Part shown: positions 46,528 to 64,000 of the stretch, piece by piece
Layout: every line of letters begins with the position of its first letter
Numbering within the stretch: the first letter of the stretch is position 1
Assembly: GCA_022826825.1 (NCBI GenBank)
Contig: JAJDUD010000064.1
Location: 62,001 to 126,000 of the forward strand
From: Acidobacteriota bacterium
GTDB taxonomy: Bacteria; Acidobacteriota; Vicinamibacteria; Marinacidobacterales; Marinacidobacteraceae
Direction of reading: 5' to 3'
Length of the DNA stretch: 64,000 bases
The notes under the pieces: model-generated
Databases searched by the model: none
Told to the model about the DNA's origin: nothing
Seen by the model: only the letters and a program-made list of their open reading frames with translations
Made by a program: the position numbers and the translations under genes

Positions 46528-46565
46528 GAGTACCTCCTTGAAACATTGTGGAGATCGAGTGCGGA

Positions 46566-49500
46566 TCACCTCGAGATGACCCGGTCACCTCCGGCCCCCG
46601 GGTGCGCGGCTGCCGGGGGCCCCGGATGCCAGCCGGATCCCGCCCCCGCCGTCAGGCGATAGATCGCGGGCACCAGCAGCAGGGTGACGAGCGTCGCGAA
46701 CGCTACCCCGAACGAGAGCGAAACCGCCATCGGGATGAGCACCTGCGCCTGCACGCTCCCTTCGATCATCAGGGGCGCCAGCCCTCCGCAGGTGGTCACC
46801 GAAGTGAGGATGACGGGCCGGAAACGGAGCGGTCCGGCGGCGAGCGCCGCTTCCCGGACCGACGCCCCGCCGGCGCGGCTCCGGTTGATGAAGTCGAGGA
46901 GTACCAGGGCGTCGTTCACGACGATTCCGGTGAGCGGCACCATCCCGATGAAGCTGGTGAGGGACAGGGGAAGGCCCACGACCTGGTGACCGAAGACGGC
47001 CCCGGCGAGCCCGAAGGGTACGGCGGCCATGATCACGAAGGGCTGGGCCCACGACGACAGCGGGACGGCGAGCAGGACGTACACGAGGATCAGGGCCAGG
47101 ACCAGGTGTCCGCGGAGCGCCGCCATGGTCTCCTGCTGATCGCCGGCGCTTCCCACGACTTCGAATCCGAGTCCGGGAAAACGCTCCCGGACGGCGGGGA
47201 TCATCCGGGCCTCGGCTTCGGCGATCAGTCCGCCGGGGGAGGCCCGCTCCGGATCCACGCTCGCGCTGACCGTCACGGTGCGCTGATCGTCCAGCCAGCG
47301 GATGACCGACGGGCCCCGCTCCTGCGAGATCTCCGCCACCTGGCCGATCGCGACCGCCTCGCCGTCCGCCCGCCGGACCCGCATCCCGGTGACGGCGTCG
47401 AGGCTCCGCCGGCTCGACTCGGGGTAGCGCAGGAGCACCCGGATCTCGTCGTTCCCCCGCTGGATGCGCTGGATCTCCTCGCCGTGGAACGCCTGCCGCA
47501 ACTGCCTGCCGAAGTCCGCGGCGCCGATCCCCGTCGCGGGACCCCCGGAACGGACCCGGGCGACGAGTTCGGGCGCCTCGCCCTCGAGGTCGTCCGAGAC
47601 CGAGATGACCCCCGGGAACTCCCGTATCAACGCCGCGAGCGCCGCCGCCGCCGCCCGGAGCTCCTCGAGCGCGTCCCCGCGAATCCGGATCGACAGGTCG
47701 CTGCCCTGTCCGATGACCGAGGTGAGCACGGTGGCCTGGCCTCCGTGCGGGAGGGAGCCGGCGAGCGCGCGGAGTCGGTCGGCAATCCGGCGGGGGGGGA
47801 CCTCGGCCCGTTCCTCCGCGGGCGCCAACTCCCAGATGAGCTGGCCGATCCGGGCGTCCGCGCGGACTGTCGCTCCCCCGAGCTCGCCGCCGACCCCCAC
47901 CGGAAACCGCTGCCCCACCATCACGGCGAGGTTTTCGTGCGGATCGATGCCGTGTTCGGCCTCGAAGTCCCGCCGCACGCGCCCGATCGCGGCCTCGAGT
48001 TCGTCCACGACCTCGGCAGTGGCCGCCGTGGTCGAGCCCGGCGGCAGCGAAACCTGAACCCGCACCGCGTCGGAATCGAAGGGAGGCGCCGGCTCCACCG
48101 GGATCCAGCGGCCCCGCACGAGACCGAGCGCCAGCGCGAGCGACACCACGCCGAGGGCCACGGTCGCCCCGGGGTTGTCGATGGACCAGCGGAGCGCGGG
48201 CCGGTAGAGCGATTCCACCGTCCAGTCGAGCGCCGCCTGGATCCGGCCCCGGATGCGCGCGAGGCGCCGGCTCGGGCGAACGGCGAGCCCGCCGTGGGCC
48301 AGGTGATGGGGCAGGATCCAGGCGGCGTCCAGCATCGAGAACGCGAGCACCGGGATCACGATGCGGGGAAGCGTTCCCATGAGTTCGCCCCAGACGCCGG
48401 GAAGCCCGAGGAGCGGCGAGAACGCCGCCATGGTGGTCAACACCCCGAACGACGCCGGAAAGAGGACCTGCCGGACGCCGCGGATCGCCGCTTCCGAAGC
48501 TCCCGTCCGTCTCGTGGCGATGTGCCGGTGCACGTTCTCGCCGACCACGATGGCGTCGTCCACCACGATCCCGAGGGTGACGATGAAGCCGAACATGCTC
48601 ACCATGTTCAACGTCACGCCGAGTCCCGGCATCAGCAGGAAGGCGCCGAAGAACGCCACCGGCAGCCCCGCCGCGGTCCAGACCGCGACGCGGGTGGAGA
48701 GCGTGAAGAAGAGGACCAGGAAGATGAGCGCCAGACCCTGCAGACCGTTCCGGACGAGCACTTCCATGCGGCTGTCGAAGAGCCGCCAGGCGTCGGCCCA
48801 GGGGGTCAGGGTGAGCGGGGGCGGCAGCCGCCGGGAGGTCTCCCGGACCTGCGCCTGGACCGCCGTCACCGTCTCGAGCAGCCGCGCGTCCGGGGCCAGC
48901 ATCACCTCGAGGAACACCGCCGGTTCCCCGTTCATCCGCGCCGCCCGCTGGACATCGGTGAAGCCGTCGGTCACGGTCGCCACGTCCCCGAGCGCCACGA
49001 AGCCGCCCCCCGGGGTGCTGATGAGCGGAATCCGGGCGAACGCCGCCGCGGTCCCGGCTTCCGCCTCGGTCCTGAGGCGCACTTCGCTGACGCCGGTGCG
49101 GACCGATCCCGCCGGAATGTCCGTCGAAGCGCGGCGGATCGCCGCCGCCACCTGATCGAAGGTGAGCCCGAATCGGGACAGCACGTCCTCCGACACCTCG
49201 ATGGAGATCTCGTAGTCCCGGCCGCTCGCCGTTTCGACGGCCGCGACGCCCGGCACGCGGGAGAGGTCCTCCCGGACCCGGTGCGCCGCCTCGGTGAGCG
49301 CGCGCTCGTCCGCCCGACCGTGCACCGCGACCCGCAGCAGCAGGCGCCTCGTGGAACTCTCGCCGATGACCGGATCCTCGGCGTCGGCGGGCAGGCTGGT
49401 GATCGACTCGACGCGTTCCCGCACCTCGTCGCCGACGCTCTGGAAATCGGCCCAGTACTCCAGCTCGACCGTAAGCGTGCCGACCCCGTCGCGCGCGGTT

Positions 49501-49784
49501 CCGGAGATCTCCCGGATCCCCCCGACGTCCCGCAGCACCTCCTCCATGGGCTTGAGCACGCTCGCTTCGATGACGGAGGCGCCGGCCCCCGGCCAGGCGG
49601 TCCTGACGGTCAGGGTCGAAGGGCTCGTCTCCGGCACCAGTTCCTGCGGGACGCCGCCGATCGTGAGGATGCCGGCCAGCGAGATCGCGAACAGGAGCAG
49701 GTTCGCGGCGACCCGGTTCCTGACGAACCAGGCGATCACGCCCCGCGAGGGCGGCCCGCCGGCCGGCGTGGCTTCCTGCGACAC
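46566..49784 (-). CDS. RND efflux pump subunit, second of two
   Basis: 1072 residues from a GTG with GAGAGGT upstream. Twelve transmembrane helices in two halves and two periplasmic porter loops are expected; visible are the first helix (VAANLLLFAISLAGILTIGG), VDDAIVVGENVHRHIA in TM4 with the paired Asp of the proton relay, and VNDALVLLDFINRSRAGG in TM10. It is similar in overall form to the preceding pump but not a close copy. It likely forms a pump with MFP and the other RND protein. The substrate is not deducible. Confidence 0.9.
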   Translation of the reverse strand: MSQEATPAGGPPSRGVIAWFVRNRVAANLLLFAISLAGILTIGGVPQELVPETSPSTLTVRTAWPGAGASVIEASVLKPMEEVLRDVGGIREISGTARDGVGTLTVELEYWADFQSVGDEVRERVESITSLPADAEDPVIGESSTRRLLLRVAVHGRADERALTEAAHRVREDLSRVPGVAAVETASGRDYEISIEVSEDVLSRFGLTFDQVAAAIRRASTDIPAGSVRTGVSEVRLRTEAEAGTAAAFARIPLISTPGGGFVALGDVATVTDGFTDVQRAARMNGEPAVFLEVMLAPDARLLETVTAVQAQVRETSRRLPPPLTLTPWADAWRLFDSRMEVLVRNGLQGLALIFLVLFFTLSTRVAVWTAAGLPVAFFGAFLLMPGLGVTLNMVSMFGFIVTLGIVVDDAIVVGENVHRHIATRRTGASEAAIRGVRQVLFPASFGVLTTMAAFSPLLGLPGVWGELMGTLPRIVIPVLAFSMLDAAWILPHHLAHGGLAVRPSRRLARIRGRIQAALDWTVESLYRPALRWSIDNPGATVALGVVSLALALGLVRGRWIPVEPAPPFDSDAVRVQVSLPPGSTTAATAEVVDELEAAIGRVRRDFEAEHGIDPHENLAVMVGQRFPVGVGGELGGATVRADARIGQLIWELAPAEERAEVPPRRIADRLRALAGSLPHGGQATVLTSVIGQGSDLSIRIRGDALEELRAAAAALAALIREFPGVISVSDDLEGEAPELVARVRSGGPATGIGAADFGRQLRQAFHGEEIQRIQRGNDEIRVLLRYPESSRRSLDAVTGMRVRRADGEAVAIGQVAEISQERGPSVIRWLDDQRTVTVSASVDPERASPGGLIAEAEARMIPAVRERFPGLGFEVVGSAGDQQETMAALRGHLVLALILVYVLLAVPLSSWAQPFVIMAAVPFGLAGAVFGHQVVGLPLSLTSFIGMVPLTGIVVNDALVLLDFINRSRAGGASVREAALAAGPLRFRPVILTSVTTCGGLAPLMIEGSVQAQVLIPMAVSLSFGVAFATLVTLLLVPAIYRLTAGAGSGWHPGPPAAAHPGAGGDRVISR

Positions 49785-49887: not shown

Positions 49888-52800
49888 TCACACTTCGGCT
49901 TCTTCCGCGCCGCCGGAGTCCAGCTTCAGCATCTCGGCGACGATCAGGACCGCCGGAATGAAGAACAGCAGCCCGATGCTCGCGAAGGCGAGTCCCGCCG
50001 TCAGGCTGATGATCATCGGAACGGTGTACTGCACGGTCTCGCTCTTGTCGTAGAGCAGCGGCAGGAGACCGACGATCGTCGTGGCGCTCGTGATCACGAT
50101 GGGACGCGCGCGATCCCGGGCGGCGGCGGAGATCGCGGCGATGACCGGGAAGTCCGGGTTCTCCCGCCGCATTCCGTTGTACCGGTCCATCAGGAGCAGC
50201 GTGTCGTTCACCACGACCCCGGAGACGGCGACCAGGCCGAAGACGGAGACGTAGTTCAGTTCGTAGCCGAGCACGAAATGCCCCAGCACGGCGCCCACGC
50301 CGGCCATCGGCAGGCCGGCGAGCGCCAGGAAGGGCTGCGCGAGGTTGCGCATCTGGGACGCCAGCAGCCCGAAGACCGCGAGCATGGCGAGCGGGAACGT
50401 CCAGGCGAGCGTCCCGGCGGTAAGCCTGCTCTGGCGGGTCGATCCGGCCGCGTGGACCTCGAGCCCCGGGTGGCGCTCGACGAGTGCCGGGAGGATCTCC
50501 CTGCTCACCGCGCGCTGTACCCGGAGGCCGGCCCCGACCTCCGGGTCGTAGAAGGCGGTTACGGTGGCGGTGCGACGCCCGTCGAGTCGCGTCAGCGTGG
50601 CGTAGTCCTGGATCTCGGTGATCCGAGCGACCGTGGACAGGGGCGCGTCCTTTCCCGGGCCCAGGGAGATGCGCTCGTCCAGCAGGTCCCGCAGACTGCG
50701 GCGGCGTTCCGCCGGATAGCGGACGACGACCCGGATTTCGTCCGGCCCACGCTGGATCCGCTGGGCCTCGGCGCCGAAGAATGCGTCCCGGAGCTGGTTG
50801 GCGAGACGCCGGGGGGTCAGTCCGGCCATGAAACCGGTTTCGCTCAACTGGATGTCGTAACGCCGGGCTCCGGGAGCGAGCGTGTCGTGGACCTCCCGCG
50901 TGGCCTCGATGTCCAGCGCGGCATCCCGCAACTCGTCCACCGCTCGGGCGACGACCTCCAGATCGTCGTGCGCCAGGGTGTAGGAGACGCTCGGAGAGAA
51001 CATGTCCGCGCTGGTCACGAAGTGGACCCGCTCCGCGCCCCGGATCTCCCCCAGCCGGTCCCGCCACAGCCTCAGGAAGTCCACTTCATCCAGTGGGCGC
51101 GGCGACGGAGCGAACTTGACCTCCACCGTGGCCAGGTGGGTCCCTTTCGGGTAGTTCCGGGTCCCCACCATCGCTTGCCGGGGCAGCCGCTGGCCGACGA
51201 GCACCGCGATGGATTCAAGCTGGCCGCCGCCGACCGCCTCATTCGCGGCCCGGGCCGCCCCGGCGAGCTGATCCGCCGCCGCTGCGGTGGTCCGGGCCGG
51301 GGTTCCCGCGGGCATGGTGATTTCCGCCGCCAGGCGGTCGGAGCCCAGGCTGGCGGGGAACGGATTGAGGGGAACCGCCTCGACGACGACGAGCACCAGC
51401 GCCAGCACCACCGCTGCGGCCACTGCGGCGATCACCACGAACGGCGCGCGCACGGCCCGGGCGATGGCCCGCACCAGCTTGCCCTGAATGAGCTCGTCGA
51501 AACCGCCGCGCGTCCGCGCCTGGATTTCGGCCAGGGGCGAGAGACTCCAGCGCCGGTCTCCCGCGAGATGTCCGGGAAGGACGAAGAACGCCTCGACCAG
51601 CGAGAACAGCAGGACCAGGATGAGTGCGATCGGCACCACCCGGAACATCTGTCCCAGCGCGCCCTCGAGCGGGAGCAGGGCCGCGAAGGCCACCATGGTG
51701 GTGAGTCCTCCCACCACCACCGGCCCCCCGACCGACCGCAACCCGGCAATGGAGGCCGCCGCGCCGCGGTGTCCCCGCTCCCGCTGCTTGGCGATGGCCT
51801 CGCCCACCACGATCGCATCGTCCACCACGATGCCGGTCACCACGAAGAAGGCGAACACGGTGAGAACGTTGAGGGTGAGGCCGAAGGCGTCGAACAGCAG
51901 GAACGAGCCCACGAAGGACACGGGGATACCCACCGCGACCCACAGCGACATCCGCAGGTCGAAGATCAGCAGCAGCGCGACGAAAACGAGGACGGCTCCG
52001 AAGAGCCCGTTGCGGGCCATCCGGGAGAGCCGGAAGTCGATGATCCGGGTCTCGTCGTCCCACAGCGCGATGTCTGCGCCGGACGGCGGGGCATAGCCGT
52101 CGAGGAAACTCTTGACCTCCTCCGCGACCTCCTGAGGGGGCTGTCCGGCCCCCGCATGAACGCGAACGAACACGGCCGGCCGGCCGTCGATCCTGGCGGA
52201 CACCTCCGCTTCGTCGAAGCCGTCCCGGACCGTCGCCACGTCCCGGGTCCGGACGAGCGAGCCGTCCGGGCGGGCGAGCAGGACGATGTCCCGGAACTCG
52301 TCCGCGGTCTCGCGTTTCGCGAGGGTGCTGATGACCACGTCGCCCGCATCCGTCCGCACCTCGCCCCCGGTCGCGTTCACGGACGACCCGCGAATGCGGC
52401 TCACCACTCCGGCGATGGTGAGTCCGTAGCGCCTCAGGGCCTCCTCACTCAGCTCGATCTGGATCTCGCGGTCGCGCACCCCGGCCAGGGACACGAAGGA
52501 CACCGAGGGCAGCGCGAGGAGGTCCGCCCGGAGCGCCTCGCCGGCTCCGCGTAGCCCGTCCTCGTCGAGTTCCGTCGAGGTCAACGCAAAGGTCAGGACC
52601 GACCGGATCACTTCGGTCCGCACGATTTCGGGTTGATCGGCCCGCGCCGGCGGGAAGTTCTCGATGCGCTCGACCGCCGTCCGCGTGGCGTTCAGCACGT
52701 CCACGGCGTCCGCGAAGGGCTTCAGTTCCAGCGTGACCTGGCTCCGCCCCTCGCTCGAGGTCGCGATCACGCGCTCCACGCCGACGATGCCGGAGACCGC

Positions 52801-53073
52801 CTCCTCGATTCGTGCGGTGACGTCCGCCTCGACCTCCGCCGGGGTCGCGCCCCGGAAGGGCACCGCAACCGTGATCGAGCGCGGGTCGTAGTGCGGCGCG
52901 CGCTCGACGGTGAGCCGCGACGCGGCGAACAGGCCGCCGCCCAGGAGCAACAGCATGAGGAGGTTGGCGGCGACGTGGTTCCCCGCGAACCAGGCGACCG
53001 GTCCCCGGGGGGTGTCCGGACGGGATCCGGAGGGGGGCATTCGCCCTTCGCCCTGTTGGTTCATGGTGTCCAT
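49888..53073 (-). CDS. RND efflux pump subunit, first of two
   Basis: 1061 residues from the ATG at 53073 (a second ATG at 53064 is also possible); GAGGT lies 8 nt upstream. TM1 VAANLLMLLLLGGGLFAASRL, TM4 VDDAIVVGEAIAKQRERG and TM10 VNDTLLLMDRYNGMRRE mark an HAE/HME-type RND transporter with proton-relay residues. It follows the MFP gene by 24 bp. Two different RND pumps in one operon may act as a heteromeric pump, as known for MdtBC. Confidence 0.9.
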   Translation of the reverse strand: MDTMNQQGEGRMPPSGSRPDTPRGPVAWFAGNHVAANLLMLLLLGGGLFAASRLTVERAPHYDPRSITVAVPFRGATPAEVEADVTARIEEAVSGIVGVERVIATSSEGRSQVTLELKPFADAVDVLNATRTAVERIENFPPARADQPEIVRTEVIRSVLTFALTSTELDEDGLRGAGEALRADLLALPSVSFVSLAGVRDREIQIELSEEALRRYGLTIAGVVSRIRGSSVNATGGEVRTDAGDVVISTLAKRETADEFRDIVLLARPDGSLVRTRDVATVRDGFDEAEVSARIDGRPAVFVRVHAGAGQPPQEVAEEVKSFLDGYAPPSGADIALWDDETRIIDFRLSRMARNGLFGAVLVFVALLLIFDLRMSLWVAVGIPVSFVGSFLLFDAFGLTLNVLTVFAFFVVTGIVVDDAIVVGEAIAKQRERGHRGAAASIAGLRSVGGPVVVGGLTTMVAFAALLPLEGALGQMFRVVPIALILVLLFSLVEAFFVLPGHLAGDRRWSLSPLAEIQARTRGGFDELIQGKLVRAIARAVRAPFVVIAAVAAAVVLALVLVVVEAVPLNPFPASLGSDRLAAEITMPAGTPARTTAAAADQLAGAARAANEAVGGGQLESIAVLVGQRLPRQAMVGTRNYPKGTHLATVEVKFAPSPRPLDEVDFLRLWRDRLGEIRGAERVHFVTSADMFSPSVSYTLAHDDLEVVARAVDELRDAALDIEATREVHDTLAPGARRYDIQLSETGFMAGLTPRRLANQLRDAFFGAEAQRIQRGPDEIRVVVRYPAERRRSLRDLLDERISLGPGKDAPLSTVARITEIQDYATLTRLDGRRTATVTAFYDPEVGAGLRVQRAVSREILPALVERHPGLEVHAAGSTRQSRLTAGTLAWTFPLAMLAVFGLLASQMRNLAQPFLALAGLPMAGVGAVLGHFVLGYELNYVSVFGLVAVSGVVVNDTLLLMDRYNGMRRENPDFPVIAAISAAARDRARPIVITSATTIVGLLPLLYDKSETVQYTVPMIISLTAGLAFASIGLLFFIPAVLIVAEMLKLDSGGAEEAEV

Positions 53074-53097: not shown

Positions 53098-54231
53098 CTA
53101 CTCGGCGACCCGGACGGCGAGTCCGGGCCGCGCTCCGACGACCCGGCCCACCACGACGCCCTGACGGGGATCGAACGCTTCGACCAGCCAGCCGGCTTGG
53201 GTCCTTCCGAGCGTTTGTGGAGTGACGGACTGCAGGGCGCCCCCGTCCACCACCCAGACGCTCCCCCCGGGCTGTTCGGCCGCCTCGGGAAGCGCGAAGA
53301 CATCCGAGAGAACCGGCCCTCCGAGGCCGACGATGGCGAACGTGCCGGGCCGGGGAAGGTTGCGGGCGTTCCCGCGAAACGCCAGGAACAGGGTGACGAG
53401 CCGGCTCTCCCGATCCACCACGGCCGCGACCCGATCCACCGACGCCGCGAACTCCCGTCCTCCGGCGCGTACCGTGGCGCGGCGGCCGACGATCGGCTCG
53501 AGGCTGGTCAGTTCTTCCTGTGAGATCTGGGCCTCCACCTGAAGCGCTCCGTCCTGGTACACCAGTCCGAGCGGCGTATCCCGCCCCACGACCTGACCGA
53601 CGGTGGCCCGCGCGCTCGCGACCTGCCCGTCGAAGGGAACCGAGATCTCGGTGCGGGAGAGAACGATCTCCGCCTGCTCCACCCCCTTTAGCGCGCGGTC
53701 CAGGTCGGCCTGCTTCTCGGCGATCTTGGCCGTCCGGGCGACGAGTGGCGGCGGCTCCTCTCCGGGATGGTCCCGGTGGAACTCCTGGACCGCGGCCTCC
53801 GCTTTGTGCTCCTGCCGCAGCAGGCGCGCCTCCGCGTAGCGCACCCGCGCCCGGGCGGCCTCAAGGCGGTTCGTGGCGTCGCGCTGATCGATCCGGACCA
53901 GCGTCTCCCCGGCCGCGAAGGAGCCGCCGTTCCGGAGGGCGGGAGCCACGTAGACCACTTCGCCGCGGTTGTGGCTGAACAGCCGCACCCCGTCCAGAAT
54001 GGTGACCGCGCCCGTGGTGCGCACGTTCTGCGCGGCCTCGCCCGGCGCCGGCTGGATGACGGTGACGGTCGGGACCCCCGGCTCGGCAAGCCTCAGGTCG
54101 TCCGTGTGCGCCTGCCCCCGGGGAGCGCGGGCGAACCAGATGGCCACGAGTACGCCAACGACGATGACGACGATCTGCAGGGTTCCGCGCCAACCCCCGC
54201 GTTCGGCTGTGGCGCCGCCTTCTTCGAGCAT
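53098..54231 (-). CDS. Membrane-fusion (HlyD/AcrA-like) efflux adaptor
   Basis: 377 residues from the ATG at 54231, with GGGAGGT before it. An N-terminal membrane anchor (LQIVVIVVGVLVAIWFA) is followed by the usual hairpin with a helical coiled-coil (about 110-200: RLEAARARVRYAEARLLRQEHKAEAAVQEF ... KQADLDRALKGVEQAE), lipoyl halves around it (GEVVYVAPALRNGGSFAAGETLVRI; ISVPFDGQVASARATVGQVV) and a beta-barrel domain. It is first in the operon and links the inner-membrane RND proteins to an outer-membrane channel, which is not encoded here. Confidence 0.88.
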   Translation of the reverse strand: MLEEGGATAERGGWRGTLQIVVIVVGVLVAIWFARAPRGQAHTDDLRLAEPGVPTVTVIQPAPGEAAQNVRTTGAVTILDGVRLFSHNRGEVVYVAPALRNGGSFAAGETLVRIDQRDATNRLEAARARVRYAEARLLRQEHKAEAAVQEFHRDHPGEEPPPLVARTAKIAEKQADLDRALKGVEQAEIVLSRTEISVPFDGQVASARATVGQVVGRDTPLGLVYQDGALQVEAQISQEELTSLEPIVGRRATVRAGGREFAASVDRVAAVVDRESRLVTLFLAFRGNARNLPRPGTFAIVGLGGPVLSDVFALPEAAEQPGGSVWVVDGGALQSVTPQTLGRTQAGWLVEAFDPRQGVVVGRVVGARPGLAVRVAE

Positions 54232-54886
54232 CGTGACCTCCCGTTCCGGGGAGCGGCAGCGCCGGGTGAACTCCGGTCCATGACGGGGCCCGGATACCGA
54301 CGCCTCCCCAATAGGCCGATTGTCCCTCAATTGGGACTGCCTTCACCACGTGAAAACTCCAGGTGTCACGAGTCTCCGCGGTTGACCGTGATGTAGCGGC
54401 GTTGCTGGAGAGCCGACCGGCGAGCTGCCGGGCCAGGTGCTCCAGGGCCCCGGTTCCGGGGAACGGTGGGCCGCTCCGCTCACGAAACCGTAGGGCTCCA
54501 CCTTCTTCGAAACCGAGGTGCTCACCGGGTGAAACGAGGCCGCGCGCGTCGTGCCCACCTGTGTTGGGCGCCACTCCGGAGGCTTGATTCCCCGGACGGT
54601 GTCCGGCAAGATAACTCCGGTGGGTCCGGTGTGAACCAGGGGGTCGAGGTGATCGTGAGCGTTGCCGGAGGCGGCACGGCATCCCCTGAACCTCGCCGTT
54701 CCTGGAACCTGCGCGCAGCCGTTCAGGAGGGACTCCGCTGATCGCGCAAGGCTTCCCGGCGGCATCCTCCGTCGCCTCCTTCCCTGCGAGGTGCGGCCAA
54801 CGCCGGACTCGTCGCGGGCGGCGTCTTCATTCTGATCCGAGCCTTGCGCGTTCTGCCCGGCCCCGCGCCTCCCGTTAGAGCACACG
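54232..54886. other. 655-bp divergent intergenic region between efflux operon and PKS
   Basis: The gap separates two large, divergent transcription units and must hold their promoters. Short open frames are present but none with recognisable motifs. The only distinctive sequence is the dyad at 54322-54337. Confidence 0.5.
54322..54337. promoter_or_regulatory. Dyad GTCCC-N6-GGGAC in the divergent region
   Basis: GTCCCTCAATTGGGAC is a 5-bp inverted repeat about an AATT core, 91 bp before the MFP start and 550 bp before the PKS start. It might be an operator of the efflux operon. The regulator is not in this window. Confidence 0.4.
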
Positions 54887-57800
54887 ATGGATGATCCGAG
54901 GTCCGACGATGCCGTCGCCATCGTCGGATATTCCCACCGCCTGCCAGGCGGCCTCCGTACCGACGACGATTTCTGGCGACTCCTGAGCGAACGGGAAACC
55001 GTCCGGGAGCCCGTCACCGGCCGCTACGGGCGGGGCTACCGGCCGATCGGAGAGTTCTCGGGGCCGGGCCGCTTCGCGAGCGCCTACGAAGGCCTGATCC
55101 GCGACGAGGGGGAGAAGCTCTTCGATCGCGGTCTGTTCGGCATGTCGCACCACGAAATGCTGTCGGCCGATCCGCACGTACGGATGCTGTTGACCTGTAC
55201 CTGGGAGGCCTGTGAACAGGCCGGATGGGACCTGCTGTCGTTGCGGAACAGCCGAACCGGCGTCTTCGTCGGAGCACAGGTTCCGGCAACCTCGAACTGG
55301 CGCCGGCCGCTGGGCGCAACCGAGTTTTCCATCGCCAGCATCAGCGTGGCCATGCTGGCCAACCGCATCTCCTATCACTTCAACCTGATGGGACCCTCGC
55401 TCGCCTGCTGCACCGCATGTTCCGCCAGCCTGACCGCGCTGCATACCGCGTTGAACGCACTGCGCTCCGGCGACTGCGAACAGGCTTTCGTGGCGTCGGC
55501 CAACTACCTGGGCTCCGCGCGGCTCAGCACCGGCTTCAACGCGCTGGGGGTCATCAGCCCGGATGGGCGATGCCACTCCTTCGACGCGGAGGCGAACGGC
55601 TACATGCGTTCGGAAGGAGCCTTCGTTTTCGCGATCAAACCGCTGGCGGCGGCCGAACGGGACGGCGACCCCATCCACGCCGTGGTGGAGGCCACCGCGA
55701 TCAATGCCGCAGGCGCCGCCGACGGTGCTCCGGGCCTTGCGGCGGGGCGCTACATCACGGCGCCGACCCGACATGCGCAGGTGGACCTGATGCGCGCGGC
55801 CTGCGCCCGCGCCGGCCGGGAGCCGCGGGAGTTCGACTACGTCGAAGCCCATGCGACCGGCACGGTGGTCGGCGACCGCATCGAGGGCAACGCCATCGCC
55901 GAAGCGTTCGGTGACGGGCGGGACGCGCCGCTCCGGGTGGCAAGCGTCAAGAGCAACGTGGGGCACATGGAAGCGGCGGCGTTCACGGCGGCCCTCCACA
56001 AGGTCGTGCTGATGATGCGGCGGCGGACCTTCGCGCCGGTGTCGAAGAACTACGTGGTCGCGAATCCGGACATCGACTTCGACAGTTGCCCGATGCTGGT
56101 GCAGACGGCCTGCGATCCGTTCCCGGACCGCCCGGTGCTGGTCGGCATCAACTCCTTTGGCTTCGGCGGCTCCAACGGGCACTGCGTGGTCCGCGAATAT
56201 CGTCCCGAGTCCCGGCGGATCTGGTCGGTGCCGCTCGCGGGCAAGGCCGGTTTCATGGTCCCGCTGTCGGCGCGGACGTCCGGCGCTCTGGAAAAGAGCG
56301 CCCGAGCGCTGCGCGAGACGCTCGAGCGCCGGGAGATGGACCTGTACACCCTCGCCGGCAATCTCAGCCGCCGCCGCACCCATTTCGCCACCCGGACCTC
56401 GTTCGCCGTCCGCACCCGGGACGAGCTGATCGAAGCGCTGCGGGGTTTCGAGCGGGATCCAACCCCCATCGCCACGGCCGATCCCGAACAGCGCCGGATC
56501 GCCATGGTGTTTTCCGGACAGGGCACGCAGTGGGCCGGTTGCGGGCGCGCGCTGTACGACGCCGATCCCGTCTTCCGGCGGGTCGTCGATGTCATCGAGG
56601 ACCATTGGCGGGAGCACTCGGCCCGTTCGTTGCGCGAGGCCTGTTTCTCCGCCCCGCAGGAAGCGCTCAACGAAGTCCAGCTCGCCCAGCCCGTCATCTT
56701 CATGCTCCAGTGCGCGCTCGTGGAGCTGTTCAAGACCTGGGGCGTCTATCCCGAGTGCGTGGTCGGACACAGCTCCGGCGAGGTGGCGGCCGCCTATGCC
56801 AGCGGAGCGCTCTCCCTGGAGGAGGCAACGCGCCTGGTGTTCCATCGCGCCACCCTCCAGCAGCGCACGGCCGGCTCCGGCCGCATGCTGGCGATCGGCC
56901 TGGACCGGCCGGGCGTCGAGGCGTTGCTCGAGTCGCTGGGAGTGGGCCGGCAACCCGCAACGGACGCCGCTCTGCGCGTCGAGATCGCTTGCGAGAACGC
57001 CCCCGCCAGTACCGTCATCTGCGGCCGGGAAGCCGCCGTGCGCTCCGTCATGGAAGGACTGGACGGGCGCAACGTGCAGCATCGGCTGATTCCCGGGAAC
57101 ATCGCGTTCCACTCCAGCGCCATGGATCCGATCCGGGAGGACGCCCTCGCGGCGCTGCGCTTCCTGGACGAAGGCGCGTTCGACGCCGACGTACCCATGG
57201 TTTCCTCGGTGACCGGGGTCGCGGCGCAGGCGCTGGACGCCGCCTACTGGTGGTCGAACATCCGTCGGCCGGTGCGATTCGCGCAGGCGATGGAGACCAT
57301 CGTGCGGAACCACCGGCCCGACGTCATCCTGGAAATCGCGCCGCACAGCGCCCTGCAACCCACGATCGCGCAGTGTCTCGAAGGCGATGCCGGGCGTTCG
57401 GTCTGCATTCCGACGCTGATGCGTGACACCGATGCGAGCCGCGGCTTCCACGAGGCCCTCGGAGCGCTGTTCCGGGCGGGTGTCCACCTGGACTTCGCCG
57501 CGCAGTATCCCCGTCCCGAGCCGATCGGCCACCTGCTGCCCGGGTATCCGCGCGACGACCAGTCGGCGTCCGACGACATGAGCGACGACGAGATGTTCCT
57601 CGAGCTGGGGGAGTACGCCCACGGCCCGCTGATCGGCCACCGGGTGCCGTGCGAGCACCCGCTGTTCGAAGCGCGGCTTTCCGAGTCGGATTTCCCCTGG
57701 TTGGCGGAGCACCGCGTGCACCACGCCTCGATCATGCCGGCGGCCGGCTACATCGAGTTGCTCCTGCAGGCGTTCGAGGGCGTTCCCCTGCATGTGGAGA

Positions 57801-60800
57801 CGCTCGAGTTCCTGCAGCCGTGTCCCATCCCCAAGACGCCGGTGCGGCTCCAGACGGAGCTGTTTCCCGTGGCCAACGCGCCGGACGAGTTCACCTTCAC
57901 CATCTCGTCCCGATCGTATGAACCGGATGCCCGCAGCGAACTGCACTCGCGCGGAACCCTGCGCCTCGTAACCGGCGACCACCCGGTGAACGCGCCGCCG
58001 CGCCTCGCGGACATCGACACGACCGGCTTCGAGCCCTACTACTTCGTGGGCGAAAGCGACTTCTACGAGCGCATCGACGCGAGCCTGGGCGAGACCTTCC
58101 AGTACGGCCCCTGTTTCCGCACCATCAAGCGCGTCCTGTGGGAGGGCACGACGGCCGACTATCTGTTCGACGTCGAGATGGACGAGCGGTTGTGGACGAC
58201 GGGCCGCGACGAGGGATACGTCGCGAACCCCGCGCTGCTCGACGGCGGACTCCAGATCTTCCTCTATCACCTGCTAAGGGCGACGGACATCTTCGCCATG
58301 CCGAGGCGCGCCCAGGGAGTGACCTTCCTGCGCCCGCCGACCGGGCCACGGCTGACGCGTTACGTGAAGAAGGAAAAGGACTGGGCGGACGTCAACGAAC
58401 TGGGACAGTTCACCGAGCGGCGCGGGGAGCGCTCCGGGGGCAGCATCCGCTTCTATGACTCCGACACGGGCGATCTGGTGGCGTGCATCGACGCCTACGT
58501 CTCGTTCAACTCGAACCCGCGCTGGAACGACCTGCCCCGCAGCAAGCACGTCGTCTCCTGGCAGCCCAAGTTCGTTGCTGCCGAACCGCCTCTGACGCAG
58601 GTTCGGCCGGACGGCGAGTTCGAGCCCTCGGCCCTGGTCGCCGCGCTGGAACGGCCCGGAAGCGATCGCCGCGCCTGCCACGTCATCGAGTTCGCGGGCG
58701 GCCGCCCGCCGGAGGAAACCATCCTGAACCAGTGCCTGGACTCCCTGGACGGCGACCCCACGCACACCGAGTTCTGGGTGATCGGCGAGACGGAGGAGCA
58801 CACCCGGGCCCACTACGAGGCCTTCCAGGGCCGGGAGACCGCCCTGCGCTTCGTTTCCCTGGATCTCGCCGCGGAGCCGGCGGCGGATCTCGACACGGGT
58901 CTCCTGCGGCCGCACGCCGCCGAGATGCTGTGGCTGCACGAGGACGCCGCGGCGTTCGGGCCGGAGCAGTGGCGCCTGTTGCGGCGGCTCGCGGTCCCCG
59001 GCGGTCTGGCGCTGGTGGTTCATGGCGACGGCAGGACCGTGGAGGCGGACGGCGCCTGGACCACGGTGCACGCCGGCCGGCGCTCGACCCTGCTGCGGGC
59101 GCGGGACGCCGTCCCGGACCCCCAGGACCCGCGTCCGTTGCCCGGACCCCGGTGGGTCATCGGCGCGCCGGACAGCCCGGCCGCGGAGTGGCTGGCCCGG
59201 CTCGGCGACGCTGAGGCGATCTCCATTCCGTACGGGGAACTGGAGGACGATCGTGTCGGTACCCTCGCGGAGTGGCCCGCGGCGGCCGACCTGCGGGCGA
59301 TCGACATCTTCTGCGGCGCCGATCCCGAGGACCCGACCGGGCAGGCGCTCGTGACGCGCCTGATGGCCTTGTTCAAGGCGCTGATCCCCTTCCGCGTGGA
59401 GAACGCGCGGGGCCCCTGCCGCGTGACCCTGGTGACGCGCCGCGCCGTGATGGATGTGGCGGAACCGCGGGCGAGCGCGGTCTGGGGAGCCATCCGCAGT
59501 CTCGGGCATGAGATCGCCGCCGACTTCGGTACGGAGGCCGCGATGGATCTGCGGCTCGTGGATGTGGGCGGCGCCGAGGACCTGACGGCGTTGCGGTGGC
59601 TCGGCGAGTGCGACCTGCGGGAGCGGGAGTTGGCGATCCGCAGCAACCGGGTGTGGGCGCCGCGCCTCCTCCCCGTCCGCGAGCGTTCTCCGCTCGTCGC
59701 CGCGGGCGAGGAGTCCACCTACCGGCTGACGCTCGACAATCCGGGCCAGATCGGCGGGCTGCAGATGAAGACCTACGAGCCCGCCTCCCTCGGACCGCGC
59801 GACGTGGAGATCGAGATTGCCGCAGCGGCTCTCAATTTCCGCGACGTCATGGTGACGCTGGGGATGCTGCCGGCGCTCTCCTATGAACGCTCTGCCCTGG
59901 GCCGTACGGTGGGGATGGAAGCGAGCGGGGTCGTGCGCCGCGTGGGGAGCGGGGTGCGCACCTGCCGTGTTGGTGACGAGGTGGCCTTCACCCAGGGCGG
60001 CTGTATCGCCAACCGCGTGGTGGTCCGGGACTACCTGGTGTTCCCGAAACCCCGGGCGCTGAGCCTGGAGGAAGCCGCTTCGGCGCTCTCCGTTTACGTC
60101 ACGGCGTACTACTCCCTCCTGCATCTCGCCCGCCTGCGCGCGGGCCAGCGGGTGTTGATCCACTCGGCCATGGGAGGCGTCGGCCAGGCGGCGATCGCCC
60201 TGGCCAAACACGCGGGCGCCGAGATCTACGCCACGGCGGGAAGCGAGAGCAAGCGCGAACAACTGCTCGCTCTCGGTGTGCGCGCGGCATTCGATTCCCA
60301 CGGTTTCGATTGGTACGAAGGGGTGATGGAGGCGACCGGCGGCGAGGGCGTCCAGGTGGTCCTGAATTCGCTCGCCGGCCACCACCTCGCGCTCTGCCTG
60401 AAGGCGCTCCAACCCGGAGGGTGGCACTGCGAGATCGGCAAGGTGGACATCTACGCCGACAACGCGCTTCAGCTCAGCGTTTTCCGCAAGAACCTGCGCT
60501 TCGCGGCGATCGATATCGACCGTCTGATGAGCGACGATCCGGAGTTGGCGCGCGAGCTCTCGCAGGAGTGCCTGGACCTGCTGGAGCGGGGCGCCGTGCC
60601 TCCCTTGCCGATGACCAGCTTCGGCTACGGCGACTACGCGTCGGCGCTGCGCCTGATGACCACCGGCCGGCACACCGGAAAGCTGGTGCTCCAGGCCCCG
60701 CGAGATCCGGGCGGCGAACGCTTCCCGATCGTGGATCTGCGCCCGTATCTCGACCCGGAGGCGACGTACCTGGTCACCGGGGCGCTCGGCGGATTCGGCC

Positions 60801-61975
60801 GGCTGCTCCTGCCCTACCTGGCGGCAGCCGGGGCGCGCCACGTCACGCTGATGGACCGCGATCCGGAGCGCGGCCGCAGCGACGACTGGGTCCGCAAGAC
60901 GAGCGCTCTGTGGTACCTCACCGAAGCGATCGAGATCGACATCGTTTCGGGGGACGTCGCCCTCGAGGAGGACGTCCGGCGGTGTGTCCAGGCGTTGCAG
61001 CGGCCCCTGAAGGGCGTGTTCCACCTCGCGGGCGCCCTCGACGACTGCCTGCTGGCCGACCTGACACCCGAATCGCTCGACAGGGTCTTCGCGCCCAAGG
61101 CGCGGGGCGCCCTCAATCTGCACCGGGCGACGGCCGACTGCCCCCTGGACCACTTCGTGCTGTTCTCCTCCGTCGCCTCGACGTTCGGCAACCTGGGACA
61201 GATCAACTACAGCGCCGCCAACGGATTCCTGGACGGCCTGGCCGCTTTCCGCCGCCGCGCGGGGCTCCCCGCTCTCAGCTACAACCTGGCAGCCGTCGCC
61301 GAGGCCGGAATGGCTTCGCGCAATCTGCACGTCCTGCGGCTCGCCCGGTCGTCGGGCATGCCCCCGGTCAGCGCCGACTTCGCCATCACCAATCTCGACT
61401 ACGCCATGCGGCGGATGGGGGACCGGGAACACCTGATCACGGCCGTCTTCTCCCGGCCGCCGCTGAGCCTGGACTCGCCGGACTACCTGCGGACCGGGCG
61501 CCTGCTGAGCAACCCGGACGCGTTCTCGGTGGAGGTGGGCGGCCAACTCACGCTGGACACGGTGGTCGCCCAGATCGCGGCCAAGGTGGCCGAGCTGTGC
61601 GGACACGAAGAGGGCGGCCCGGAGGAACCGCTGTCCAGCTTCGGGCTTACCTCGATCTCGGTCGCCGAACTGGGAGCCTTCATCCGGATGGAGTTCAACT
61701 TCCAGGTCAGCGCCCTCGAACTGATGACCGAGGCTTCGGCACTCTCGCTGGCGCAGGACATCATCCACGGGAAGCAGGAGGTCGAGGAGAAGCAGGCCGA
61801 CCGGGATGAGACCGGCCTCGACACCGATTCCGCCGCGGGCCCGCAGCGCGCCCGCCGGCGGCCGTCGGCCTTCGCGAGCGCCCTCGAAGACCACTTTCCG
61901 CAGGTGAACCGAGGCGCCTCGGCGCGTGATCCGCATCCCTTGCGATCCGGTCTGCGAAGCCTTGAAGCGCCATGA
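54887..61975 (+). CDS. Type I iterative polyketide synthase, single highly reducing module
   Basis: 2362 residues from the ATG at 54887. Domains in order: KS (about 8-437; Cys178 in CCTACSASL, His in EAHATGT and in KSNVGH), AT (about 537-862; VFSGQGTQ, Ser in GHSSGE, IAFH rather than YASH, which suggests malonyl), DH (about 924-1200; His in EHRVHHASIMP with the motif Gly replaced by His, Asp in LLDGGLQ), a degenerate methyltransferase-like region (about 1260-1400), a structural-KR-like segment, ER (about 1611-1935; GGVGQAA), KR (about 1958-2140; TGALGGFG, NYSAAN) and ACP (about 2210-2290, Ser2256 in GLTSIS). No thioesterase follows; a reductase gene overlaps the stop by ATGA. A lipid-like, highly reduced chain is expected. 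Confidence 0.93.
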   Translation: MDDPRSDDAVAIVGYSHRLPGGLRTDDDFWRLLSERETVREPVTGRYGRGYRPIGEFSGPGRFASAYEGLIRDEGEKLFDRGLFGMSHHEMLSADPHVRMLLTCTWEACEQAGWDLLSLRNSRTGVFVGAQVPATSNWRRPLGATEFSIASISVAMLANRISYHFNLMGPSLACCTACSASLTALHTALNALRSGDCEQAFVASANYLGSARLSTGFNALGVISPDGRCHSFDAEANGYMRSEGAFVFAIKPLAAAERDGDPIHAVVEATAINAAGAADGAPGLAAGRYITAPTRHAQVDLMRAACARAGREPREFDYVEAHATGTVVGDRIEGNAIAEAFGDGRDAPLRVASVKSNVGHMEAAAFTAALHKVVLMMRRRTFAPVSKNYVVANPDIDFDSCPMLVQTACDPFPDRPVLVGINSFGFGGSNGHCVVREYRPESRRIWSVPLAGKAGFMVPLSARTSGALEKSARALRETLERREMDLYTLAGNLSRRRTHFATRTSFAVRTRDELIEALRGFERDPTPIATADPEQRRIAMVFSGQGTQWAGCGRALYDADPVFRRVVDVIEDHWREHSARSLREACFSAPQEALNEVQLAQPVIFMLQCALVELFKTWGVYPECVVGHSSGEVAAAYASGALSLEEATRLVFHRATLQQRTAGSGRMLAIGLDRPGVEALLESLGVGRQPATDAALRVEIACENAPASTVICGREAAVRSVMEGLDGRNVQHRLIPGNIAFHSSAMDPIREDALAALRFLDEGAFDADVPMVSSVTGVAAQALDAAYWWSNIRRPVRFAQAMETIVRNHRPDVILEIAPHSALQPTIAQCLEGDAGRSVCIPTLMRDTDASRGFHEALGALFRAGVHLDFAAQYPRPEPIGHLLPGYPRDDQSASDDMSDDEMFLELGEYAHGPLIGHRVPCEHPLFEARLSESDFPWLAEHRVHHASIMPAAGYIELLLQAFEGVPLHVETLEFLQPCPIPKTPVRLQTELFPVANAPDEFTFTISSRSYEPDARSELHSRGTLRLVTGDHPVNAPPRLADIDTTGFEPYYFVGESDFYERIDASLGETFQYGPCFRTIKRVLWEGTTADYLFDVEMDERLWTTGRDEGYVANPALLDGGLQIFLYHLLRATDIFAMPRRAQGVTFLRPPTGPRLTRYVKKEKDWADVNELGQFTERRGERSGGSIRFYDSDTGDLVACIDAYVSFNSNPRWNDLPRSKHVVSWQPKFVAAEPPLTQVRPDGEFEPSALVAALERPGSDRRACHVIEFAGGRPPEETILNQCLDSLDGDPTHTEFWVIGETEEHTRAHYEAFQGRETALRFVSLDLAAEPAADLDTGLLRPHAAEMLWLHEDAAAFGPEQWRLLRRLAVPGGLALVVHGDGRTVEADGAWTTVHAGRRSTLLRARDAVPDPQDPRPLPGPRWVIGAPDSPAAEWLARLGDAEAISIPYGELEDDRVGTLAEWPAAADLRAIDIFCGADPEDPTGQALVTRLMALFKALIPFRVENARGPCRVTLVTRRAVMDVAEPRASAVWGAIRSLGHEIAADFGTEAAMDLRLVDVGGAEDLTALRWLGECDLRERELAIRSNRVWAPRLLPVRERSPLVAAGEESTYRLTLDNPGQIGGLQMKTYEPASLGPRDVEIEIAAAALNFRDVMVTLGMLPALSYERSALGRTVGMEASGVVRRVGSGVRTCRVGDEVAFTQGGCIANRVVVRDYLVFPKPRALSLEEAASALSVYVTAYYSLLHLARLRAGQRVLIHSAMGGVGQAAIALAKHAGAEIYATAGSESKREQLLALGVRAAFDSHGFDWYEGVMEATGGEGVQVVLNSLAGHHLALCLKALQPGGWHCEIGKVDIYADNALQLSVFRKNLRFAAIDIDRLMSDDPELARELSQECLDLLERGAVPPLPMTSFGYGDYASALRLMTTGRHTGKLVLQAPRDPGGERFPIVDLRPYLDPEATYLVTGALGGFGRLLLPYLAAAGARHVTLMDRDPERGRSDDWVRKTSALWYLTEAIEIDIVSGDVALEEDVRRCVQALQRPLKGVFHLAGALDDCLLADLTPESLDRVFAPKARGALNLHRATADCPLDHFVLFSSVASTFGNLGQINYSAANGFLDGLAAFRRRAGLPALSYNLAAVAEAGMASRNLHVLRLARSSGMPPVSADFAITNLDYAMRRMGDREHLITAVFSRPPLSLDSPDYLRTGRLLSNPDAFSVEVGGQLTLDTVVAQIAAKVAELCGHEEGGPEEPLSSFGLTSISVAELGAFIRMEFNFQVSALELMTEASALSLAQDIIHGKQEVEEKQADRDETGLDTDSAAGPQRARRRPSAFASALEDHFPQVNRGASARDPHPLRSGLRSLEAP

Positions 61976-64000
61976 GTGAGTCCGTCGCCTCCGATCGCAC
62001 GCCACCGCCGCTTCGCGGGACCCTTCCGCCCGCCTGTCAACGGGATGTCGCAACCCTGCGCGGGTTCATCCGGGCGCTCGTCCGTGACGAATCGCCCGCG
62101 GCGGCAGTGTCGCCGGATGATTTCCGCGAGGTCCTGCTGACGGGAGCGACCGGCTTCATCGGGCGATTCTTCCTGCGCGACCTCCTGCAGCGGGATTCCG
62201 GTCTGACGGTGCACTGTCTGGTGCGGACCGACAGCGAGGAGGATGGATGGGAGCGCCTGCGCACCGCCCTCACGGATGCCGGTCTCTGGGACGACACGTT
62301 CGCCTCGCGCATCCGCGTCGTGCCCGGCGACATCGGCGCCGCGCGGCTCGGCCTGAGCGACCCGCATTTCAGCGATCTCTGTCAGCGGATCGATGCCGTT
62401 TACCACCTGGCGGCCGACATCAACCTCACCTCTTCCTATATCGGCGTCCGGAAGCTCAACACGCTCAGTCTGGCAAATGTGGTCGAACTCTGTGTGCGCC
62501 GCCGCTTCAAGCACCTGTTCCATGCCTCGACCATGGCCGTGTTTCCCGAGTATTTCTTTGCCTTCGCGCGCGAGTTCAGGGATCGCGCCATCGGTCATCA
62601 GATGCAGCCGGATCTCGCCAGCATGAAACGCAGGTTTCCGGTCGGATTCATGGGCTACCCGTGGAGCAAGCTGACCGCGGAGCAGGTTCTCCTCTTTGCG
62701 CAGCAGGCCGGAATGCCGCTCGCTATTTTCCGGCTGCCGCAGACGGCCGTGTCGAGCACCGGATACGTCCAGCCGAACGACCTCACGATGAAGATTCTGG
62801 GCGCCGTGCTCGACTGCGAGTCCCTGCCGGACGGATTCACCTTTCGTTCCAACCACGAGGTCGTGGACACGTTGAGTCAGGCCTGCACGGCCATCTCACG
62901 GAACTCCGGGCGCCGGTTCACGATCTACCACTGCTGCAACCCGCAGCTCGACTACTACGAGCTTGAACTCGCCGATTTCGGAGTCTATTTCCCGAGCACC
63001 TCCTACGAGGCCTTCAAGCGCGCCTGCCATGCGCGCGGCGACCAATCGCCCCTCCGCGGGTCCTGGGCGCTGCTCGATCACTTTGGGGAATACTGGTTCA
63101 GCAGGGACAAGCCGGTTGACCGGCTGCCCATTTGCGACCGCGCCTTCCGCGAGGACTGTCCGGACCCGATCCGGTGGCCGGGCGTGCTCACCAAACTCAG
63201 GCGTTCCTACTGGCGGGGACAGGAGAATCGGAAGGACTGGCCGTATCCGGCGTCACACGGCGAGCTGGATTTCGCCCGCCTGATCGAGCGGGCCGAACAC
63301 TACGCCCAGGACTGCGGCGTCCGCTTCGATCAGGCGTATCCGCCGTGGATGCGCCAGAACCTGAAGCAATTGGTGCGGGCTCTTCGGGGATCCGACGCCA
63401 GGCTGTTGGAGAACACGATCGTCGACACCGCTTTCGACCTGAGCCGTCTCCTGGTGATCAACGCGGGCATTACCCGCGAACGGCAGCGGTACCCGGAGAT
63501 CGAGCGGGAGGAAATCAGGCGCCCCGTCTTCATCGTCGGGATCAACCGCACGGGCACGACCTATCTGCACTGTCTGATGTCCCGCGACCCACGGTTCTGG
63601 GCGTTGCGGGGCTACGAGTTCGCGGCGCCGCGGCTGTCGAAGCATCAATACGCCACGATCGGGGGTACTGCGGACGATCCCCGGCGGCTGTGGGTCGAGG
63701 ACATGCTCCGTTCATCCGATGCCGTAGGGCTGTTCGAGGGGGTCCACGACTTCAACGTGGACGAACCGTCGGAGGACTTCCCGATCCTGAGCATGGCTTT
63801 CGCGTCGTGGACGCTCCTTGCCCGATATCGCATCCCGGAGTTCGGAGACTGGCTGTCCACCACCGGTTCGGACAATGCCTACGCCCACCACCGCCGCATC
63901 ATGCAGAACTACACCTGGCAGCGGCGGCAACGCCCACCGGGGCGCCGGCGGCAATGGTTGTTCAAGATGCCCTTCCACCTGATGGAGCTGGAGACCCTGA
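61972..64000 (+). CDS. Thioester reductase fused to sulfotransferase, cut by window edge
   Basis: 676 residues are visible and the frame is open to the right edge. The ATG overlaps the PKS stop (ATGA). The first half is an NAD(P)-dependent thioester-reductase/SDR domain: TGATGFIG at 57-64, HLAADINLTSSY, and a Tyr-xxx-Lys pair in GYPWSK. From about residue 515 a sulfotransferase_3-type domain starts, with the PAPS-binding loop in VFIVGINRTGTTYLH. Reductive release of the PKS-bound chain as aldehyde or alcohol, then sulfation in the same polypeptide, is the obvious hypothesis. The C-terminal catalytic residues of the sulfotransferase lie outside the window or near its edge. Confidence 0.85.
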   Translation, partial: MSESVASDRTPPPLRGTLPPACQRDVATLRGFIRALVRDESPAAAVSPDDFREVLLTGATGFIGRFFLRDLLQRDSGLTVHCLVRTDSEEDGWERLRTALTDAGLWDDTFASRIRVVPGDIGAARLGLSDPHFSDLCQRIDAVYHLAADINLTSSYIGVRKLNTLSLANVVELCVRRRFKHLFHASTMAVFPEYFFAFAREFRDRAIGHQMQPDLASMKRRFPVGFMGYPWSKLTAEQVLLFAQQAGMPLAIFRLPQTAVSSTGYVQPNDLTMKILGAVLDCESLPDGFTFRSNHEVVDTLSQACTAISRNSGRRFTIYHCCNPQLDYYELELADFGVYFPSTSYEAFKRACHARGDQSPLRGSWALLDHFGEYWFSRDKPVDRLPICDRAFREDCPDPIRWPGVLTKLRRSYWRGQENRKDWPYPASHGELDFARLIERAEHYAQDCGVRFDQAYPPWMRQNLKQLVRALRGSDARLLENTIVDTAFDLSRLLVINAGITRERQRYPEIEREEIRRPVFIVGINRTGTTYLHCLMSRDPRFWALRGYEFAAPRLSKHQYATIGGTADDPRRLWVEDMLRSSDAVGLFEGVHDFNVDEPSEDFPILSMAFASWTLLARYRIPEFGDWLSTTGSDNAYAHHRRIMQNYTWQRRQRPPGRRRQWLFKMPFHLMELETL

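Follow-up and report, generated by a model that had tools for sequence, protein, structure and literature searches.

SwfB, a predicted thioester reductase-sulfotransferase fusion, in an apparently complete and rearranged swf locus of an Acidobacteriota bacterium

What does a bacterium make with a thioester reductase and a sulfotransferase joined in one polypeptide, and are the two truly one gene? The question is raised by a reading frame at the edge of a 64,000-nucleotide stretch of DNA, here called the window (C25:62001-126000 of a 3.98 Mb Acidobacteriota genome). The gene, swfB, occupies 61972-64479 on the forward strand, with its last 479 bases past the window edge, and is identified from its frame, its Pfam matches and its relatives. 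It opens with an ATG at 61972 that overlaps the stop codon of the upstream synthase gene swfA as ATGA, is stop-free to the window end at 64000, and closes at 64479 in the genome contig, which gives 835 codons. An earlier note on this DNA had reported reductase and sulfotransferase motifs in a single uninterrupted frame, and all of them are present as described: the Rossmann motif TGATGFIG (62140-62163, +; residues 57-64), the catalytic Tyr229-x3-Lys233 of the reductase (62656-62670, +), and the PAPS loop GINRTGTTYLH (63538-63570, +; residues 523-533).

A Pfam search of the complete 835-aa protein finds both activities proposed for the chain, a thioester reductase (R) and a PAPS sulfotransferase (ST). 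PF07993 (NAD_binding_4) matches residues 56-290 with an E-value of 6e-47 (160.4 bits against a cut-off of 20.1), and PF13469 (Sulfotransfer_3) matches residues 518-775 with an E-value of 3e-32 (113.1 bits against a cut-off of 27). The R domain scores under the TIGR01746 cut-off (189.6 against 213.35 bits, E 9.6e-56); its fold agrees with the assignment nonetheless.

The fusion was thought to lack a described pathway, but a protein of the same kind has been in print since 2013, and the family is known from sponge bacteria. Della Sala et al. described swf clusters of sponge symbionts in which SwfA has the order KS-AT-DH-ER-KR-ACP, SwfB consists of R and ST, and SwfC is a B12 radical SAM protein (PMC3908369). 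According to that account, SwfA is about 2350 aa long, SwfB measures 832-839 aa, and swfC is absent from one cluster. SwfA is further characterized there by the signatures HATGT, IAFH, GHSSGE, and QCALVEL, and by a change of the second Q of DPQQR to I or V. The window gene is almost certainly SwfB, an identification made by matching this published description (domain order, size, SwfA motifs, and SwfC). As in the published clusters, R and ST stand in one protein, here of 835 aa, downstream of a single-module synthase with the same motifs, and a B12 radical SAM gene is present.

SwfA (54887-61975, +; 2362 aa) is a single-module type I PKS/FAS with the Pfam domains KS-AT-DH-ER-KR-ACP in order and, from these and its motifs, is read as iterative. 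The signatures HATGT, IAFH, GHSSGE, and QCALVEL are all present, and the DPQQR site reads DPHVR. At 54/80 loci there is a SwfA-like frame, 1500 codons or longer, that contains both H[AG]TGT and GHSxGE, the 80 being the best of at least 218 relatives found in the scan of named genomes described below. Within those 54 frames from the best 80 of at least 218, HATGT is found in 54, IAFH in 54, GHSSGE in 52, and QC[AG]LVEL in 41, while the DPQQR site appears as DP[QH][VI][RK] in 32 and DPQ[ML]R in 6, with neither pattern found in 16. The swfA gene was detected at 73 of the best 80 of at least 218 loci, a lower bound because of contig ends, and at 62 of those 63 that retain 9 kb or more of upstream sequence.

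SwfC (42322-44058, +; 578 aa) contains B12-binding, Radical_SAM, and DUF4070 domains, with its CX3CX2C motif present as CPFNCEFC. It shares 68% identity with a radical SAM protein whose gene is flanked by swfA and swfB in a genome from another class of the same phylum (G024). Among the named NCBIfam models of B12 radical SAM methylases (HpnR, KedN5, and others), 12 matched SwfC at E <=1e-5, all far below their cut-offs (for HpnR, 42.9 against 650). The gene was detected at 53/80 loci of the best 80 of at least 218, a lower bound as many loci are cut by contig ends, and the SwfC step is therefore considered optional. Published swfC genes adjoin swfA/swfB or are absent in the clusters as described, whereas in the window a stretch of about 10.8 kb with a TonB receptor and RND genes separates swfC from swfA, which lies downstream. 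With its predicted swfC, swfA, and swfB, the window locus reads as a complete but rearranged swf cluster.

Relatives bear directly on whether swfB is one gene. Among 193 genomes searched from the same class, five have a strong SwfB match, the window's own included. In a genome of the same genus (G326), the full-length fusion is 97% identical over 835/835 residues, and two more distant genomes also encode full-length fusions (G440, 57% identical; G455, 56%). The remaining genome (G436) has two swfB fragments, one with a stop. Within the genus, swfB is present in 2/8 genomes listed, and some of the others are incomplete. Among 38 genomes from the other class of the phylum there are four matches: G050 (68%) has a frame broken near residue 643, G024 (69%) is cut by a contig end, G300 retains the ST part only, and G062 has only a sulfotransferase. 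The copies in G436 (L058), G050 (L039), and G300 (L057) are likely decaying or broken, and assembly errors are possible there.

A wider scan of named genomes found at least 592 stretches that matched a pattern and at least 218 relatives, of which the best 80 were kept. Both peptide patterns used in the scan lie in the reductase half and so impose no selection for a sulfotransferase, although keeping the best 80 favors long matches. Of these best 80 (of at least 218), 77 span both halves, and 75 of those 77 are free of stops. The other five comprise L067 and L089 with a stop inside the match, L127 with a stop and a cut at residue 757, and L119 and L132, which are cut by contig ends. Four loci, L060, L111, L113, and L132, are very likely the same records as G326, G440, G455, and G024, respectively, and are not independent of them. 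Identity to the reference row in the R half correlates with that in the ST half (r = 0.91 over 74 rows), and the two halves of swfB appear from these alignments to be inherited as one gene.

Frameshift or assembly error in this genome was the obvious way to dismiss the fusion, and damaged copies do exist: the frame broken near residue 643 in G050, the fragments with a stop in G436, and a stop inside the match in 3/80 of the best 80 of at least 218. Such an artifact is nevertheless vanishingly unlikely in the window, where no break was found between the halves of swfB. Both domains lie in one open match in 75/80 of the best 80 of at least 218, and the 97% identical copy in G326 is intact. This copy, together with the 77/80 best relatives that span both halves, excludes chance joining or assembly error, and the fetched homologs do not fit the alternative that the halves are always encoded separately. 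A second sulfotransferase of the genome, in an 846-codon frame at C64:68104-69030, was weighed as a possible second fusion and set aside, with none of the genome's seven PF07993 places on C64. The same two activities occur unfused at L044:8778-18999 (G132), where an NRPS frame with a terminal reductase is followed by an overlapping but separate PF13469 sulfotransferase gene.

The predicted structure of the 97% identical homolog from L060, built on 75 aligned relatives, has a mean pLDDT of 92 and a pTM of 0.88. In this model the R domain spans residues ~17-430 (62020-63261, +) and the ST domain residues ~430-835 (63259-64000, +, with its end outside the window). Using VIA-align, residues 17-430 superpose on the MxaA terminal reductase 4w4t (Z 41.4, rmsd 2.6, 379 aligned, 27% identity), residues 429-821 on Mycobacterium tuberculosis STF1 2zq5 (Z 38.2, 359 aligned, 30% identity), and residues 335-835 on M. 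avium STF9 2z6v (Z 38.8, 380 aligned, 24% identity). The same 4w4t, 2zq5, and 2z6v are the top three Foldseek entries among R and ST structures. For residues 17-430, MxaA (4w4t/4u7w) is the top fold match and also ranks among the best by sequence; unlike SwfB, it is the terminal domain of a PKS-NRPS protein, and its solved chains carry no sulfotransferase. STF1 and STF9 are the nearest solved sulfotransferases to the ST half by both sequence and fold, but the solved structures are of stand-alone proteins (384 and 414 residues) that lack a reductase.

Residues ~330-510 had been taken for a linker. In the model they are assigned to the ends of two ordinary domains, and since the fold matches cover 17-430 and 429-821, the segment comprises the last part of the reductase fold and the first part of the sulfotransferase fold; a linker or an extra domain was accordingly rejected. 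The two folds join directly at about residue 430 of the model, with no free linker. Conservation of the segment in homologs, which the earlier note had proposed to check, is about that of the domain cores: the mean majority fraction is 0.69 for residues 331-379, 0.62 for 380-433, and 0.61 for 434-515, compared with 0.70 and 0.68 for the cores.

Thr57, Gly58, Gly61, Gly64, Tyr229, and Lys233 of the reductase are invariant in 75/75 aligned rows, while position 186 holds Ser in 71 rows and Gly in the other 4. The invariant sulfotransferase residues (75/75 rows) are Gly523, Arg526, Gly528, Thr529, and Thr530 of the PAPS loop, together with His592, Glu601, His640, His669, and Arg690; His533 of the loop is likewise invariant in 75/75. 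Both the R and the ST site look active by this conservation.

Partnership with the synthase is closest in L130:2891-12484, where SwfA and SwfB form one 3197-aa chain with matches to KS, AT, DH, ER, KR, R, and ST. This arrangement suggests that R and ST act on the chain of that synthase. No ACP match was obtained for the L130 protein at E <=1e-5, and the ACP serine motif is visible in its sequence. A second single-chain SwfA-SwfB frame was not found among the best 80 of at least 218 loci. The L130 record is titled Williamsia sp. isolate E01 and has 49% GC; the title may be wrong.

The window's genome contains an APS kinase for PAPS supply and one PPTase-superfamily gene above the cut-off, which is of Sfp-like length and lies on another contig. 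This PPTase is 51% identical over 233 residues to the PPTase encoded behind swfB in G455. The G455 gene (L056:15585-16292; ACPS family, E 4.3e-18) directly follows swfB, and it may encode the activator for which Escherichia coli AcpS was no substitute in 2013.

Reductive release followed by sulfation, first suggested in 2013 (PMC3908369), is the probable function of SwfB. In this route, SwfA would act as one fully reducing module, fed with malonyl-CoA and working iteratively, to leave its ACP carrying an acyl chain that is largely saturated. SwfC, with the domains of a B12-dependent radical SAM enzyme, may methylate or otherwise alter the chain. The R domain of SwfB, whose fold and catalytic residues are in place, would use NADPH to reduce the acyl-ACP to an aldehyde and then to a primary alcohol, a four-electron outcome. 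The ST domain, which has the sulfotransferase fold and the PAPS loop, would transfer the sulfuryl group of PAPS to the hydroxyl of this alcohol, yielding a primary alkyl sulfate. At its weakest step, the route has the amphiphile leaving through the neighboring RND pump. The domains, their order, the motifs, and the partnership with SwfA are observed. The mechanism is favored because of the stable fusion, the joint divergence of its halves, the swfA partnership, the L130 chain, the conserved sites, the APS kinase, and the PPTase. A whole swf cluster, expressed with Svp in E. coli BAP1, is reported to have given no compound common to all transformants yet absent from all controls (PMC3908369), and expression without a new compound counts against every route proposed.

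Two-electron and four-electron reductases look alike in sequence and fold, neither of which names the sulfate acceptor. The main rival to alcohol formation, itself rather unlikely, is that R stops at the aldehyde after two electrons and that ST sulfates a different hydroxyl, either remaining from a reducing cycle that was not completed or supplied by another enzyme, to give a sulfated fatty aldehyde or a derivative. R domains are able to release the aldehyde (PMC2995488), and a review describes the toxadocials as sponge sulfates with a mid-chain aldehyde, citing a proposal that aldehydes bearing hydroxyl or sulfate groups condense to form them (PMC6780655). The fusion of ST to the release domain in 77/80 of the best 80 of at least 218 relatives best fits action on the group that release creates. 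The reductase of MxaA, the nearest solved R fold, is alcohol-forming, which also argues against an aldehyde product.

Sulfation of a separate small molecule, glycan, or lipid, with the fusion serving only co-expression or placement, is improbable. The nearest solved sulfotransferases, the mycobacterial STF1 and STF9, leave room for such a role. Against it stand the direct joining of the folds at ~430, the fact that the two halves diverge together, and the L130 locus, where SwfA and SwfB share one chain. Alcohol formation followed by sulfation of the released chain remains the preferred reading.

CurM of curacin A biosynthesis resembles SwfB in coupling a PAPS sulfotransferase to chain release in a polyketide synthase. 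In the curacin A pathway, as recounted in PMC3908369, a beta-hydroxyacyl-ACP is sulfonated and an elimination follows. A corresponding role for SwfB, in which ST would sulfate the beta-hydroxyl of an ACP-bound chain, the sulfate would be lost to form an alkene, and R would serve only for release, is highly improbable. CurM releases by a thioesterase and loses its sulfate, whereas SwfB has a reductase. No thioesterase is among the seven Pfam families matched by SwfB at E <=0.1, which led to rejection of ST-TE release and upholds the original reading that a reductase takes the place of a thioesterase. The order is R then ST, and because SwfA has KR, DH, and ER matches, a beta-hydroxyl is not its expected end state. 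CurM structures do not appear among the 50 fold matches listed for the model, and no weight is placed on this. Two coccidian protist type I FASs share with SwfB the contiguous R and ST domains, as told in PMC3908369, but there the pair forms the end of multimodular megasynthases.

By record title, the best 80 of at least 218 loci belong to Pseudomonadota (31), Gemmatimonadota (20), Acidobacteriota (15), Nitrospirota (5), Latescibacterota (4), Rhodothermota (2), Chloroflexota (1), and Actinomycetota (1), with one assigned to no phylum. One locus counted under Pseudomonadota (L095) comes from a record titled BD2-11, which we take to be a Gemmatimonadota clade. In a quick tree of 81 rows, the window SwfB groups with Acidobacteriota and Latescibacterota rows, and the phylum labels need 20 changes against a minimum of 7. 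This excess fits transfer between phyla, a reading weakened by binning errors and wrong titles. Loureiro et al. (2022) reported swf-like clusters in Nitrospirota, Latescibacterota, and Acidobacteriota, independent of taxonomy (PMC9426513), and a 2023 paper describes swf orthologs in Ca. Thalassonella (PMC10227082). An early assignment to Poribacteria is withdrawn in a 2014 paper (PMC4245539). The present analysis adds an Acidobacteriota relative with a complete swf locus beside RND genes, records SwfB across eight phyla of named genomes, and contributes one single-chain SwfA-SwfB and a structure model.

The swf family is still of some interest because its role is given as unknown in the 2013 report (PMC3908369) and a literature search found no paper showing a swf product. 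A 2022 paper, citing earlier work, credits SwfA with a role in the synthesis of methyl-branched fatty acids (PMC9864124). A broader picture can be put forward tentatively: swf may make primary alkyl sulfates, perhaps with methyl branches, and may have passed between phyla within sponge microbiomes, with SwfB performing release and sulfation in one protein, RND export in some lineages, and some sponge aliphatic sulfates as its bacterial products. If the release-and-sulfation model is true, surfactant-like alkyl sulfates are the output of a pathway common in sponge microbiomes; antifouling and signaling activities are reported for compounds of this class (PMC6780655). Both the single-chain SwfA-SwfB of L130 and the PPTase beside swfB in G455 give a practical means of getting past the expression failure of 2013.

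The genes between swfC and swfA lie on the opposite strand. They encode a TonB-dependent receptor between swfC and the pump (44203-46569, -; PF00593 and PF07715), two RND permeases that are possible exporters (46566-49784, -, PF00873, E 5.6e-161; 49888-53073, -, PF00873, E 1.4e-129), and the membrane fusion protein of the RND system (53098-54330, -; HlyD_3, E 4.7e-14). A pump of the window's second type occurs at 10/80 of the best 80 of at least 218 loci, a lower bound that includes the window's near-copy L060. PF00873 matches the genome at 17 places; counting two split permeases once each and dropping one match that falls short of the cut-off gives ~14 RND permeases, three of them near other PKS loci. 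Given these figures and the 10/80 count in the best 80 of at least 218, export by this pump is doubtful, and RND export was not supported as a generally conserved part of swf. The three permeases near other PKS loci suggest that the placing of a pump next to swfA may be part of a broader tendency in this genome.

A STAS-domain gene of one type is found near swf at 32/80 of the best 80 of at least 218 loci (a lower bound), with examples at L057:11888-12637 and L039:17094-17780. Anti-anti-sigma-like genes are listed beside one published swf cluster (PMC3908369). The STAS gene was not found in the window or in L008, and the genome's PPTase is on another contig; neither was retained as a local part of the locus. 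The three other PKS loci with an RND permease within ~15 kb are C25:102-8391, C27:56211-85438, and C40:262698-276133. At the last of these, an APS kinase, an RND permease, and PKS genes stand together at a contig end (C40:260952-276133; L142).
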